Both the position numbers and the translations under genes were made by a program. 64,000 nt of DNA from Alphaproteobacteria bacterium (lineage in GTDB: Bacteria > Pseudomonadota > Alphaproteobacteria > Thalassobaculales > Thalassobaculaceae), in contig JANSYC010000001.1 of NCBI GenBank assembly GCA_024742605.1, forward strand, positions 124,001-188,000, written 5' to 3'. Shown here one piece after another: positions 19,611-34,556 of the stretch. The notes under the pieces are model-generated. The model was not told the DNA's origin, ran no database searches, and saw only the letters and a list, made by a program, of their open reading frames with translations. The number at the start of each line of letters is the position of its first letter. The first letter of the stretch is position 1.

Positions 19611-20324
19611 TTGGCTCCTCCCGCTCTCTCAGTCGTGATCCCGACCCGCAACGCCGCCACGAGGCTGCCGGCATGCTTGGCCGCGGTGGCCGGAGGTGTC
19701 GGGCATTTCTCAGCGATAGAGATCGTGATCGCCGACTGCGAGTCCGACGACGCCACCGTCGCCATCGCGCGCGCTGCCGGGGCGAAGGTCGTACAGGCCG
19801 CGATAGGTCGTGGGCGGCAGCTCAGGGCGGCAGTTGCCGCCAGTCGCGGCGCGTGGCTGCTCGCGCTGCATGCCGACACTGTGCTCGGCGCCGGCTGGGG
19901 GGCGGCCGCTGCCGAATTCACCGTTGACCCGTCCAACCGGGCTCGCGCGGGCTATGGGCGTCTGGTCTTCGACGATCCTTCGCCCTGGGCTCGACGCATC
20001 GCGTCGGCGGCCGCGTGGCGGTCCCGCCGGCTCGGTCTGCCGTATGGCGACCAGGGTCTGCTGCTGGCGCGCGACTTCTACCAGCAGGTGGGCGGCTATC
20101 CGGACTGGCGGCTGATGGAAGATGTCGCGCTTGCCGACCGGATTGGCCGGCGCCGATTGGTCGCCCTGGATTTCGACGCGGTCACCTCGGCCGATCGCTA
20201 TCGGCACGAAGGCTGGTTGCGCCGACCGCTGCGAAATCTAACGTGCCTTACTCTGTACCGGCTGGGCATGGATCCCGACCGTATCTTGAGGCTCTACGAA
20301 GGCGGAGCACGTTCCCGACGATGA
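19611..20324 (+). CDS. TIGR04283-like glycosyltransferase (arsenosugar-biosynthesis type, GT2)
   Basis: This GT-A fold family 2 glycosyltransferase of about 237 residues opens with LSVVIPTRNAATRLPACLA and continues with EIVIADCESDDATVAIARAAGAKVV. A DAD-like nucleotide-sugar motif is replaced by HADTVLG, as in the TIGR04283 group, and YGDQGLLLARDFYQQVGGYPD followed by MEDVALADRI is the acceptor region. No ATG lies near the start of homology, so I use the TTG at 19611; a start slightly upstream is possible. Its stop overlaps the next gene (ATGA). In other genomes this family accompanies the TIGR04282 protein and arsenosugar radical-SAM enzymes. Confidence 0.8.
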   Translation: MAPPALSVVIPTRNAATRLPACLAAVAGGVGHFSAIEIVIADCESDDATVAIARAAGAKVVQAAIGRGRQLRAAVAASRGAWLLALHADTVLGAGWGAAAAEFTVDPSNRARAGYGRLVFDDPSPWARRIASAAAWRSRRLGLPYGDQGLLLARDFYQQVGGYPDWRLMEDVALADRIGRRRLVALDFDAVTSADRYRHEGWLRRPLRNLTCLTLYRLGMDPDRILRLYEGGARSRR

Positions 20325-21445
20325 CCCCGTTCGCAGATTCCACTCTGGTCATCTTCACCCGTGCGCCAGTCCTGGGGACGGTGAAGACACGGCTGGCCAG
20401 GAGCATCGGCGACGCCGCCGCCTTGGCGCTGCACAAGTCCTGCCTCGCCCGCGCCGTGGCGCTCGCAGCAGGAGAGCCGCGCTGGGCCGGCTGCCTCGCC
20501 GTGGCACCCGACACGGCGGTTGCTGGACCGGACGGCGAGTCGCCCACGTGGGCCGGTGGCCTGCCAGTGTTTCCGCAGGGAGAAGGAGACCTCGGAGCGC
20601 GCATGATGCGGGTGCTGACCCGGGCCACCCCTACTGCGCCGGTCGTGCTGATGGGGAGTGACATCCCCGCGGCCACGCCAGAGCACATCTCCCGCGCCTT
20701 CGCGTCTCTCCGCGATGCCAAGCTGGTGTTCGGACCAAGCGAGGATGGCGGCTTCTGGCTGGTCGGCGCATCGGCGCCGCCGTCGCCGGACCTGTTCTCC
20801 GACATCCGCTGGTCGAGCGTGCATGCGCTGTCCGACGTCACGGAGCGATTGGCGCGCGACGCCTGGCGGGCGGTGGACACACTCTGGGACGTCGACGAGC
20901 CGGATGATCTTTCCCGATATTTGGCAATGGCTGAGCTCAGTACGGTCATCGACGATTTCAGGGCGCCGCCGATGGCGAGCGTCGGCACCGAGTGGAAACT
21001 GGTCGCCGATAGCGTCATGGGTGGGCGGTCGACCGGCAGCATGACGCGCGAGACCCTGGGCGGCCGTCCGGTGCTGCGCTTGCGGGGCACGGTCAGCCTC
21101 GAGAACAACGGTGGCTTCGTGCAGGCCGCGCTCGACCTCGCGCCAGATGGCACGACGGTCGACGCCGCGGGCTTCCAAGGCATCGAGATCGATGTCGCCG
21201 GCAACGGCGAGTTCTACGGCCTGCACCTGCGCACCGCCGACGTTACCCGGCCGTGGCAGTCCTACCGCCAGGGCTTCGTCGCCACTGACCTGCTCCGCAC
21301 CGTGCGCCTTCCCTTCGACGGGTTCGAGACGCACCGCATCGACCTGCCCCTGGACCTCACCCGCCTGCGCCGGATCGGCCTGGTCGCTATCGGCCGCGCC
21401 TTTGAGGCCGACCTCTCGATCGCGGGGATCCGGTTCTACCGGTGA
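20321..21445 (+). CDS. Fusion: TIGR04282-like glycosyltransferase + CIA30 (complex I intermediate-associated protein 30) domain
   Basis: This 374-residue protein joins two families. Residues 1-205 are a TIGR04282-type GT-A protein (FTRAPVLGTVKTRLARSIG, MGSDIPAATPEH, GPSEDGGFWLVG). Residues about 206-374 are a CIA30-like beta-sandwich (WKLVADSVMGGRSTGSM, LENNGGFVQAALDL, GIEIDVAGNGEFYGLHLRT and a final IAGIRFYR), a fold that assists complex I assembly in mitochondria and has uncharacterised bacterial relatives. Start and previous stop share ATGA. The reading frame is continuous across the join, with the linker at MAELSTVIDDFRAP. The fusion suggests the CIA30 unit binds the same sugar product or carrier, which is inference. 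Confidence 0.82.
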   Translation: MTPFADSTLVIFTRAPVLGTVKTRLARSIGDAAALALHKSCLARAVALAAGEPRWAGCLAVAPDTAVAGPDGESPTWAGGLPVFPQGEGDLGARMMRVLTRATPTAPVVLMGSDIPAATPEHISRAFASLRDAKLVFGPSEDGGFWLVGASAPPSPDLFSDIRWSSVHALSDVTERLARDAWRAVDTLWDVDEPDDLSRYLAMAELSTVIDDFRAPPMASVGTEWKLVADSVMGGRSTGSMTRETLGGRPVLRLRGTVSLENNGGFVQAALDLAPDGTTVDAAGFQGIEIDVAGNGEFYGLHLRTADVTRPWQSYRQGFVATDLLRTVRLPFDGFETHRIDLPLDLTRLRRIGLVAIGRAFEADLSIAGIRFYR

Positions 21446-24248: not shown

Positions 24249-24995
24249 ATGATGAACGTCCCTCTCCCCAGCGATGAAACTGACCGACTGGCCGAGCTTG
24301 TTTGGTTTCAGATACTGGATACTGCACCGGAAAAAGGGTTCGACCGTATCACGAGAATTGCGGCACAGATCGCGCAGACGCCGATCGCCCTGGTCTCGTT
24401 GGTTGACAAGGATCGACAGTGGTTCAAATCGTCTTGTGGGCTTTTTGTATCAGAGACAGGGCGGGACGAAGCCTTCTGCTCCTACACGATCTTGGAGCGA
24501 AGCCCCGTCATCATCGAAAACGCCCTCGAAGATGATCGCTTCAAAAACAATTCCTTGGTCACAGGAGAGCCACATATCCGCGCTTATGCAGGTATACCTC
24601 TGGTGACAGAGAATGATTTTGCCCTCGGCTCCTTGTGCGTAATTGACACCCGGCCACGGAAATTCAGCGACGAGCAGATTACAGTCTTGGGAGAACTCGC
24701 CGAAACGGTCATGGATCTAATGCGCTATCGTTTGCTTCAAACAGACGTTCGGCAAAAGACCAGCATGTTCTCCTCCCAGATTAGCCATGAGATCCGCACG
24801 CCTCTTAATGCCATCATTGGATTCTCAGAGGCGTTAATGAGTGGTTCTGGCAAGGTGAGTCGGGAACGCAACAAGGAGTATCTGGAGATTATATCCAATT
24901 CTGGCCGTGAACTTGAACAAACATTAGGCAAGATGCTGGACGGTCGAACCGCAGATAGAGCGCCAACTTCTGGTCAAACAACTGGACACCAGTGA
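24249..24995 (+). CDS. Truncated GAF-domain histidine kinase (no ATPase domain)
   Basis: This 248-residue protein has an N-terminal GAF domain (about 15-165; family pieces LVSLVDKDRQWFKSSCGL, DEAFCSYTIL, AYAGIPLVTENDFALGSLCVID) and then a HisKA dimerisation helix with the phospho-acceptor in FSSQISHEIRTPLNAIIGFSEAL. The N, G1 and G2 boxes of a HATPase domain are missing: the frame ends 65 residues after the His in unrelated sequence. It could accept phosphate but not make it. The DNA is clearly less GC-rich than its neighbours, which supports recent transfer. The 285 bp after it show no gene. Confidence 0.75.
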   Translation: MMNVPLPSDETDRLAELVWFQILDTAPEKGFDRITRIAAQIAQTPIALVSLVDKDRQWFKSSCGLFVSETGRDEAFCSYTILERSPVIIENALEDDRFKNNSLVTGEPHIRAYAGIPLVTENDFALGSLCVIDTRPRKFSDEQITVLGELAETVMDLMRYRLLQTDVRQKTSMFSSQISHEIRTPLNAIIGFSEALMSGSGKVSRERNKEYLEIISNSGRELEQTLGKMLDGRTADRAPTSGQTTGHQ

Positions 24996-25280: not shown

Positions 25281-26168
25281 GTGTTTGAACCCTGTGAGTG
25301 CGGGAGCGGGAAGAGTTATGTGGGATGCTGTGGCCGGCTGCATTCAGGTGCGCCGGCGCGCGATGCGGAGGAGCTGATGCGCTCCCGCTATTGCGCGTTC
25401 AGCCGAGGACATGTGCCGTACCTGCAAAAGAGCTGGGCCGTGGAGACGCGGCCGTTGATTTTGACTCTGGACCCCGCTCAGGCGTGGACCGGGTTGACGA
25501 TCGAGCATCATGAGGTCACGGGTCCAGATACCGCGCGGGTTCGCTTCACGGCGATGTGGCGCAAGGGAACACTGACGGGCCGGATGACTGAAACCAGCCG
25601 GTTTCGCCGCGAAGGTGAGAACTGGGTCGGCACGGACGAGGCGAAGTTCGTGTGGCGAAGCACAGCGGAATATCTGACGGACTCGAGTCAATTCGAAACC
25701 CTCGAGAACCAGGCCAGACTTCAGATGCCAATCAGCAACTTCTTCGACGCGGTCGCGGGTGTTCGTCTCGACACTCCCAAAGGAGAGGATCGGGTCTACG
25801 GCGTCATAGGCCTTCACGGGCTCGCACCACAATGGTTCGAGGTCGATGCGGACCTTTATCTCGGCGAAGCATCCGCAGCCCGGTTCGAGGCAGAGTACGA
25901 AGGCCTGATAACGAACCGGATCATTCTGACCCCGAGTGTCGAACTCGAGGTCCCTTTGAACGACGACGAGCAACTCGGTGTGGGTGCATTCGCGCCGACG
26001 CTCGAACTCGGTGCCCGTCTGAGCTACGACCTGATCGATCGGGCCGTCTCGCCGTATATCGGCGTTCACTATGAGCGCAGCTTTGGAGAGACAGGCGACT
26101 TGGCCCGCGCGGAGGGCGAGAGCAGGGACAACCTGTTCTTCGTCGTAGGTACTAAAGTTTTGTTTTGA
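25281..26168 (+). CDS. Chimeric ORF: YchJ-like SEC-C protein N-terminus joined to CopB C-terminal barrel
   Basis: This 295-residue frame combines two unrelated proteins. Residues 1 to about 115 are YchJ/UPF0225: a Zn-binding CECGSGKSYVGCCG, RSRYCAFSRGHVPYLQKSW, and RFRREGENW. From about residue 120 the sequence is the C-terminal outer-membrane barrel of copper-resistance protein CopB: LTDSSQFETLENQ, FFDAVAGVRLDTP, GLHGLAPQWFEVDADL, ARLSYDLIDRAVSPYIGVHYERSFG, ending in the usual phenylalanine. CopB lacks its signal peptide and Met/His-rich N-terminus, so it cannot reach the outer membrane. The start is a GTG with GGAG upstream. It is probably a dead or repurposed recombination product. A perfect hairpin follows. 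Confidence 0.75.
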   Translation: MFEPCECGSGKSYVGCCGRLHSGAPARDAEELMRSRYCAFSRGHVPYLQKSWAVETRPLILTLDPAQAWTGLTIEHHEVTGPDTARVRFTAMWRKGTLTGRMTETSRFRREGENWVGTDEAKFVWRSTAEYLTDSSQFETLENQARLQMPISNFFDAVAGVRLDTPKGEDRVYGVIGLHGLAPQWFEVDADLYLGEASAARFEAEYEGLITNRIILTPSVELEVPLNDDEQLGVGAFAPTLELGARLSYDLIDRAVSPYIGVHYERSFGETGDLARAEGESRDNLFFVVGTKVLF

Positions 26169-31937: not shown

Positions 31938-33581
31938 TCAGGCGGGCGGCAAGGTGATCACGACCGTCGTGCCGCGCCCCAAGGTGCTCTGAAAGTCGAA
32001 CCGCCCACCGAGCACCTCCGTCAGCTTCTTGGCGATCGGGAGACCGAGGCCGGTTCCGTGAAAGCTGTCCTGTTGCGCCGCGCGGACCTGTCCGAAGGGC
32101 TCGAGCACCCGGGGAATGTCCTGGGCAGCGATCCCCGGGCCGTTGTCTTCGACCCTGATCAAAAACGCCCCGTCGGGGGCAGGCACGGCCCGACAGCGGA
32201 TGCGACCGCCCTGAGGCGTGAACTTGACGGCATTGCCCAGAAGATTGAGCAGGACCTGGGTGAGAATCCGGGTGTCGGTCCGCACCGGCGGCAGGCCCTC
32301 GGCCACCTCGAATACCAAAGCCAGATTCTTTTCCTCCGCCTGGGTCTTCAGCAGTGCCCCGACCGCAGCGAAGGTATTCTCGATGTCCAGCACCGAGGAC
32401 GATGGCTCCATCTCGCCCGCTTCCATTCTTGCCAAGTCCAGGAGATCGTCGGTCACGGCCAAGACATGCTGACCCGCTCTCCCGATATCCCGGGCGTACC
32501 CGACATATTTCTCATGTCCCAACGGCCCGAACATCCCCTGCTCCATGATCTTCGAGAACCCCAGTATGGCGTTCGCCGGGGTGCGAACTTCGTGGGCGAC
32601 GTTCCGCAGGAGCTCGGACTTCGCGGCATTTGCGCGATCCGCGTCCGACCGCGCGGCCTCCAGAAGGTGAGCAGCCGCGGTTGCTTTTCGGAAAAATGAG
32701 ACCGACATGACCGACATTGCCAGGAACACGACAGCAAAGCCGATGGCGAGTCTCGGGAGCATTTCCGTGCCCGGAAGAGCCGGTTCCCAGAGGAAGTACC
32801 CGTGGACTGCGCCGTCAACGGTCGTGATCGGGACACTCGCCTGCCAGAGACCGCCCTCCACGGGGGAGAGACGCAGATTCGGCAAAAAGAACCGACCTGA
32901 GATGTCCTCAAGAAACACCTGATCGAGTCTTTGCGCGAACAGCATGACATGGTCGGTGCTGCGATCCACCTGGACGCCGTCCAAAGCGAGGTAGGTCGTC
33001 ATGCGAACGGCGGCCACGAGGTGGAACGACTCGTCTTTCTTAAGTATTCCGGACTGGGGTATCGGCTATATGTCCTGGGGCGTTATCCGAGCCATCGCAA
33101 TCAAAGCGTCCAGCCCGTTCCCGAAGGGAGCACCAGCCTGTGGGCTCGCGCGCTCGCCTTCAATGCTGCTGAAGACGACATCATTGTTCTGATCGAGAAC
33201 TTGGGCTTCGGAGACGTTGAGGGTCTCGAAAAGATAGGGATCGAAATTGTTTTCGATCCAGTCCGGATTGATATTCACGATCAGATTGTTGACCGCTTCA
33301 TCCCAGTATCCGTACTCCAGAACCAGTTCCGACATACGGTCGAACCGCTCGCTCATGACGGCTTCGAACAGGTGTTCTGCATGTGCGATGGCGTTTCGAT
33401 TCTGGATCTGCATCAATAAAATAGAGAAAATAACAATGCCCAGGAAACTTAATGCGAGTAGGGCTAAGAACGGTAAGGCAATGCCCCGTATGGGAGTGTT
33501 TCCTCTTTTGAAGAATTCAAGCCCGTTCAGTCTACCCACCCTAGTGTCCTGCAATGCGCAAACAAGCGCGTCCCAATCCAA
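31938..33581 (-). pseudogene. CHASE4-type sensor histidine kinase interrupted by one in-frame UAG
   Basis: Read on the minus strand, codons from 33581 encode an N-terminal membrane helix (IALPFLALLALSFLGIVIFSILLM) and half of a CHASE4 sensor (YGYWDEAVNNLIV). A TAG occurs at 33068-33066. The same frame then continues PIPQSGILKKDE and FHLVAAVRMTTYLALDGVQ, finishing the sensor, a second membrane helix, HisKA with H in NVAHEVRTPANAILGFS, N box LLNLLGNAVKF, and G boxes VEDNGPGIAAQ and GTGLGLPIAKK. Nothing else is lost. So this is one kinase with a single nonsense codon, either a recent mutation, a sequence error or a suppressible stop. If real, translation could restart at ATG 33017. Confidence 0.82.
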
Positions 33582-33725: not shown

Positions 33726-34556
33726 TCAGATCGACCTGCGGTTGGCCGCCCCGTCATAGAGCTGATCCAGCCACTGCGCATTGATCCGGTCGCGGGTTTT
33801 CAGGGCCGCCGAAGATCCGGACGACCCGACACGGGGAATGTGCTCCATGTGGCCGTGGCGATCCACTCCGCGAACCACCTGCACGAAACCGCGTCCCTCC
33901 AGTTGTCGGATCGTCGGCGGAATATAGGCCTGTACGGCGAACCCGATACGTCGCTCTTCGGTCCGGTTCGGCCCGGACGCATGGGCAACCTTCCAATTGT
34001 GCAGAGACATCTGGCCCGGCTGCAGGAGCACATCCACCGCTGTGGTCTCATCGATGCTCTCGATGCTCTGGCCGCGGGTCAGGATATTGTCGGTCGCGAA
34101 GGTATCGTTGTGATCGAGATACGCGCCGAGATGCGTACCGGGTGCCATCCGCATGCAGCCGTTTTCGACGGTGCTCGGCGTCAAGGCCACCCAAGCGGTC
34201 ACCGCCACATCTTCGGACAAGGCCGTATAACGTCCGTCCTGGTGCCAGCTGACGAAACTGGGCGAGCGCCCGTCCTTCGCGAACACGACGGTGCTGAGCG
34301 CGAGAATATCGGGACCGATCAGATCCGCGACCGCATCCGCGATCCGAGGATGGTGCACGATCTGATCGAAAAAATCATAGGCGAGATGGGCGTTGTTCCG
34401 CTTCACCCCACCAAAGGCGTCCGGATCCGCCCCCTCCACCTGCTTCAGTCGGGCGAGGATGGAGGCGACCTCCTCAGACGTCAGAACGTCCACCGGAAAA
34501 ACGAACCCGTCCCGATGAAAGGCGTTGACCTGCTCCGGCGACAATCCTGATGTCAT
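33726..34556 (-). CDS. Phytanoyl-CoA dioxygenase (PhyH) family protein
   Basis: This 276-residue protein is a Fe(II)/2-oxoglutarate-type oxygenase. The metal-binding His-X-Asp is in SWHQDGRY (about residues 103-110) and the distal His in [12 protein letters not shown]; the Arg that binds 2-oxoglutarate follows in the next strand ([14 protein letters not shown]). N-terminal [21 protein letters not shown] is typical. It could hydroxylate a fatty or small acid; the substrate is unknown. It is divergent from nothing obvious; a tRNA-Pro gene lies 117 bp upstream on the same strand. Confidence 0.88.

Follow-up and report, generated by a model that had tools for sequence, protein, structure and literature searches.

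A single in-frame UAG codon in a CHASE4 sensor histidine kinase gene of a Thalassobaculaceae genome, probably a recent nonsense mutation

The interrupted kinase gene

The stretch of DNA analyzed here (the window) covers 64,000 nt of Alphaproteobacteria bacterium (Thalassobaculaceae), at positions 124,001-188,000 of contig JANSYC010000001.1 in assembly GCA_024742605.1. Its minus strand contains a 547-codon frame (33581-31938), which is broken by one internal stop, a TAG at codon 172. The original prediction of a single in-frame UAG at this site was borne out by the minus-strand sequence and its translation. About 533 codons encode, in order, TM1, CHASE4, TM2, HisKA and HATPase_c, and the TAG is the single stop among them (Table 1). 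In the remaining two forward frames, this stretch contains 15 and 10 stops. A single internal stop is therefore much fewer than chance would give, and the frame codes for protein both before and after the TAG. The gene likely starts at the GTG at 33539, to judge from an AGGA sequence 7 nt upstream of it; no in-frame ATG was found ahead of TM1.

Table 1. Features of the interrupted kinase gene (window coordinates)
Feature	Position	Strand	Details
In-frame TAG	33066..33068	-	Codon 172 of the 547-codon frame; minus-strand sequence and translation
Upstream fragment	33066..33539	-	Probable start GTG 33539; TM1 and first half of CHASE4; ends at TAG
Downstream open frame	31938..33065	-	Second half of CHASE4, TM2, HisKA, HATPase_c; ends at TGA
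TM1	33399..33497	-	Hydropathy; residues about 29-61
CHASE4, split by TAG	32871..33356	-	Pfam PF05228; residues 76-237 when read through
TM2	32688..32765	-	Hydropathy; residues about 273-298
HisKA	32415..32624	-	Residues 320-389; H box HEVRTP intact
HATPase_c	31944..32276	-	Residues 436-546; N, G1, F and G2 boxes intact
GTG	33015..33017	-	First in-frame start codon past the stop; weak Shine-Dalgarno
ATG	33000..33002	-	First in-frame ATG past the stop; weak Shine-Dalgarno

It was proposed that the frame is the same on either side of the TAG and that sensor homology continues across it. Indeed, the read-through translation matched positions 2-138 of the 140-position CHASE4 profile with 62.2 bits (Pfam gathering cut-off, 26.2), and the N-terminal half alone matched positions 2-68 with 44.6 bits. 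The proposal that the kinase boxes are intact was also confirmed, as HisKA (44.1 bits) and HATPase_c (97.3 bits) were both found, and the alignment showed the H, N and G boxes. Hydropathy analysis placed the sensor between two hydrophobic stretches, TM1 and TM2. No frameshift was seen when the gene was compared with a 42% identical relative (G131), in agreement with the earlier view that nothing else in the gene is damaged.

We then considered the place of the stop within the sensor. In an alignment of 12 proteins (the window gene and 11 homologs), the homologs had P, V, E, E, N, V, E, E, R, V and A at the stop column, and a small indel adjoined the column. An AlphaFold model (mean pLDDT, 79.9; pTM, 0.46) put the stop in a loop formed by residues 166-175, between a helix (155-165) and a strand (176-182). 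The TAG is thus predicted to sit in an unconserved loop of the sensor. In the model, two strands of the sensor sheet lie upstream of the cut and the remainder lies downstream, so that neither part would be a whole sensor. Two genuine separate genes were also considered, and this reading was rejected, as the break lies within CHASE4, between the modeled helix and strand. A fold search recognized no CHASE4 chain among the matches listed (50 of 563), which were kinase cores.

Three plus-strand open reading frames elsewhere in the window had unusual domain contents. The first, of 248 codons (24249-24995), encodes GAF and HisKA domains (profile positions 4-59 of 66) and ends without HATPase_c; none was evident after it in a three-frame translation to 25700, and the frame is possibly a truncated kinase. 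Another (25281-26168) joins a YchJ middle domain (residues 28-116) to the copper resistance protein CopB (residues 104-295), an odd combination of two unrelated families in one frame. The third (20015-21445) encodes DUF2064 and CIA30 domains.

Decoding of UAG in the genome

UAG was not rare as a terminator. Among window open reading frames of at least 150 codons, chosen greedily, TAG ended 14 of 52 when the upstream kinase fragment was included and 13 of 51 without it. Release factor RF1 was present, with a score of 513.4 bits (cut-off, 423.25). The search for a UAG-suppressor tRNA called for in the original prediction found none: not one of the 43 tRNA genes detected and typed in the genome had a CTA anticodon, although this set may be incomplete, since Ala-TGC and Arg-TCT were also missing from the lists inspected. 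The best match to PylS in the genome scored 26.6 bits, below the cut-off of 178.15. The RNA 3' of the stop folded no better than shuffled sequences (z, -0.57), and no Rfam element other than the tRNA was found.

On these grounds, recoding by pyrrolysine or by a suppressor tRNA was rejected. Because TAG is a normal terminator, RF1 is present, and neither a CTA tRNA among the 43 detected, PylS above its cut-off nor a stable RNA structure was found, recoding of UAG is essentially excluded and programmed read-through is unsupported. UAG is an ordinary stop in this genome, and there is no sign of a new genetic code.

Relatives of the gene and age of the stop

The closest relative found was the G131 homolog, from the same class and another family, in the sole genome sampled from its order. 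It is 42% identical over residues 28-545 (E value, 1.5e-131), contains no stop, and aligns without a gap across the TAG site, where it has a sense codon. The stop therefore lies in a gene that is intact in a relative, and the conservation of a stop between species with selection on both sides, as expected of programmed read-through, was not found; G131 is too distant for a meaningful dN/dS.

Other relatives were more distant. In a class sample of 385 genomes, our own included, 8 genomes (again with our own) passed at 1e-66, and G131 was the one other genome to reach 1e-131. The order set and the family set were the same 36 genomes, including our own; the 35 others gave no match at an E value of 1e-80 or below, and two of them matched at 1e-64, with 31% identity. 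In the other genome of this genus, which is 87% complete, the best match was a 30% identical homolog, which aligned closely with an intact paralog on contig C71 of our own genome. No stop was found in matches from other genomes among the matches listed in the order, genus and class searches. A scan of genome contigs found no relative of the N-terminal half, and for the C-terminal half it found generic kinases only, with at most 47% identity in the kinase part, none of which passed the sensor comparison. A plasmid search gave identities of about 31% at most, over most of the length. Gene order was uninformative: among the neighboring genes tested, in the stretches fetched, none was common to the G131 locus and the window.

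As there was no match at 1e-80 or below in the 35 order genomes and one relative reaching 1e-131, in G131, among the 384 other genomes of the class sample, the kinase gene looks accessory and patchy in distribution, and it may have been acquired by horizontal transfer. The third-position GC content of 31938-33581 (minus strand) is 0.55-0.65 in the part encoding the sensor and rises to 0.85-0.88 toward the end of the kinase, and that of most other window genes is about 0.8. Recent acquisition could account for this gradient, as could a mosaic structure of the gene. Upstream of the kinase lies a PhyH-like dioxygenase gene (33726-34556, minus strand). A relative of it with 75% identity is present in G010, a genome of the same family with no kinase match at an E value of 1e-30 or below. 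PhyH was the only neighboring gene common to G010 and the window in the stretches fetched; no other tested gene was shared around the G010 relative.

We further compared the window gene and G131 by their identities to ten other homologs. Over residues 61-547, the window gene had a mean identity of 0.297 and G131 one of 0.286. The corresponding values were 0.263 and 0.238 for residues 61-171, 0.217 and 0.213 for residues 173-300, and 0.354 and 0.346 for residues 301-547. Conserved columns in these three segments were retained in 9 of 12, 5 of 8 and 50 of 61 cases by the window gene, and in 9 of 12, 5 of 9 and 51 of 60 cases by G131. By these sequence measures, the gene is free of decay relative to G131 on both sides of the stop, which suggests that the lesion is young; an old, decayed pseudogene was rejected by the same comparison. 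Under a neutral model in which indels are assumed to be 10% of substitutions, the probability of no further damage was 0.67 at 0.2% divergence, about 0.13 at 1%, and 0.02 at 2%. The stop is young, if it is real and neutral.

Explanations of the stop and comparison with known systems

The original prediction offered a very recent nonsense mutation, a base error or a stop that is read through. The first two both fit the results; read-through is not supported, given RF1, the 13 of 51 ordinary UAG ends, and the failure to find a CTA tRNA, PylS or an RNA structure. We conclude that the TAG is probably a real, recent nonsense mutation in an accessory orphan CHASE4 sensor histidine kinase, either fixed in the strain or a polymorphism captured by the assembly. 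One stop in an intact frame, the retained domains, the gap-free G131 homolog without a stop, and the lack of decay all favor a young mutation. The TAG base would then be truly present in the organism. Ribosomes would start at the GTG at 33539, make TM1 and half of CHASE4, and stop at the UAG, where RF1 would release them. Functional kinase would be scarce or absent. As the product would be a sensor fragment without the kinase, the allele would be null or nearly so.

A base error would yield the same sequence picture, and an error or a leaky stop would account equally well for the lack of other damage. An error in base calling, consensus or assembly, with an intact gene in the living organism, is the main rival of the mutation, and we consider it unlikely. 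The rest of the gene is undamaged and evolving normally, and the draft assembly is fragmented, with 187 contigs. Interrupted genes are also rare in this genome, as no stop occurred in 107 ABC_tran matches or in 40 other kinase matches, counted over the matched stretches only. The same counts, however, speak against poor-quality sequence, deep short-read assemblies rarely contain isolated substitution errors, and no positive sign of an error was seen. Since the counts indicate both that errors do not pervade the assembly and that stops within genes are rare, they do not separate mutation from error.

The remaining explanations would leave some kinase activity. It was suggested that an ATG at 33017 could restart translation, but the codon there is a GTG, the nearest in-frame ATG past the stop lies at 33002, and neither has a clear ribosome-binding site. 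Restart at either codon would produce a kinase that lacks TM1 and the first half of CHASE4 and might be constitutively active, and the 359-codon frame from the GTG is indeed open with every kinase box intact. We regard restart as improbable. Shine-Dalgarno pairing is weak at the GTG and the ATG (-2.5 and -2.6 kcal/mol, compared with -4.0 at 33539), a weak test because the intact PhyH neighbor also scored only -2.7 kcal/mol. In the model, the GTG (residue 189) lies inside a sensor strand (185-193) and the ATG (residue 194) just past it, and the product would open with half a periplasmic domain and without an export signal. Leaky or regulated read-through, giving a small amount of full-length kinase, is still more improbable. 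The sole point in its favor in this gene is that the stop position is tolerant, with varied residues in the 11 homologs and a predicted loop, so that almost any inserted residue would do; a published study argues for read-through of some bacterial in-frame stops (PMC7918605). Against it stand the decoding results, the unremarkable RNA fold, and the lack of a stop among the listed matches from other genomes. We give very little credence to a further version, in which selection maintains the TAG as a leaky switch and low-level read-through in the tolerant loop holds the full-length kinase at a very low dose. Most translation would then end in the sensor fragment.

On the preferred reading, a recent nonsense mutation, an accessory sensor kinase is probably inactive in this strain, and the result has little meaning beyond it. 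Annotation will split or discard the gene. Single in-frame stops in draft genomes can be mutations, polymorphisms or errors, and the gene offers a clean case for asking how often each applies. Nonsense-interrupted bacterial genes are a known and ordinary kind, to which the finding adds one more example. In-frame stops in bacterial genes are described as widespread; most are reported to be short-lived, and those that are shared to have a dN/dS below 1 (PMC7918605). The cases presented by Belinky et al. 2021 (PMC7918605) are alike in having a single stop, an intact frame on both sides and no other damage; however, conservation was shown there across related genomes, whereas the window stop was found in one genome only.

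The read-through frame has the full domain order of CHASE4 sensor histidine kinases (PF05228, PF00512 and PF02518), but its sensor domain is cut in two by the in-frame TAG. Solved chains 8z6n, 8z5k and 8wct, named as bifunctional diguanylate cyclase/phosphodiesterase and possibly chains of IsmP, gave weak, non-significant matches (E value, about 0.5). The Pseudomonas aeruginosa protein IsmP is described as having an iron-binding CHASE4 domain of two subdomains and as acting with a diguanylate cyclase (PMC10904736). Its sensor belongs to the same family as that of the window gene; while IsmP, as described there, binds iron and has a diguanylate cyclase partner, the window protein is a histidine kinase instead.
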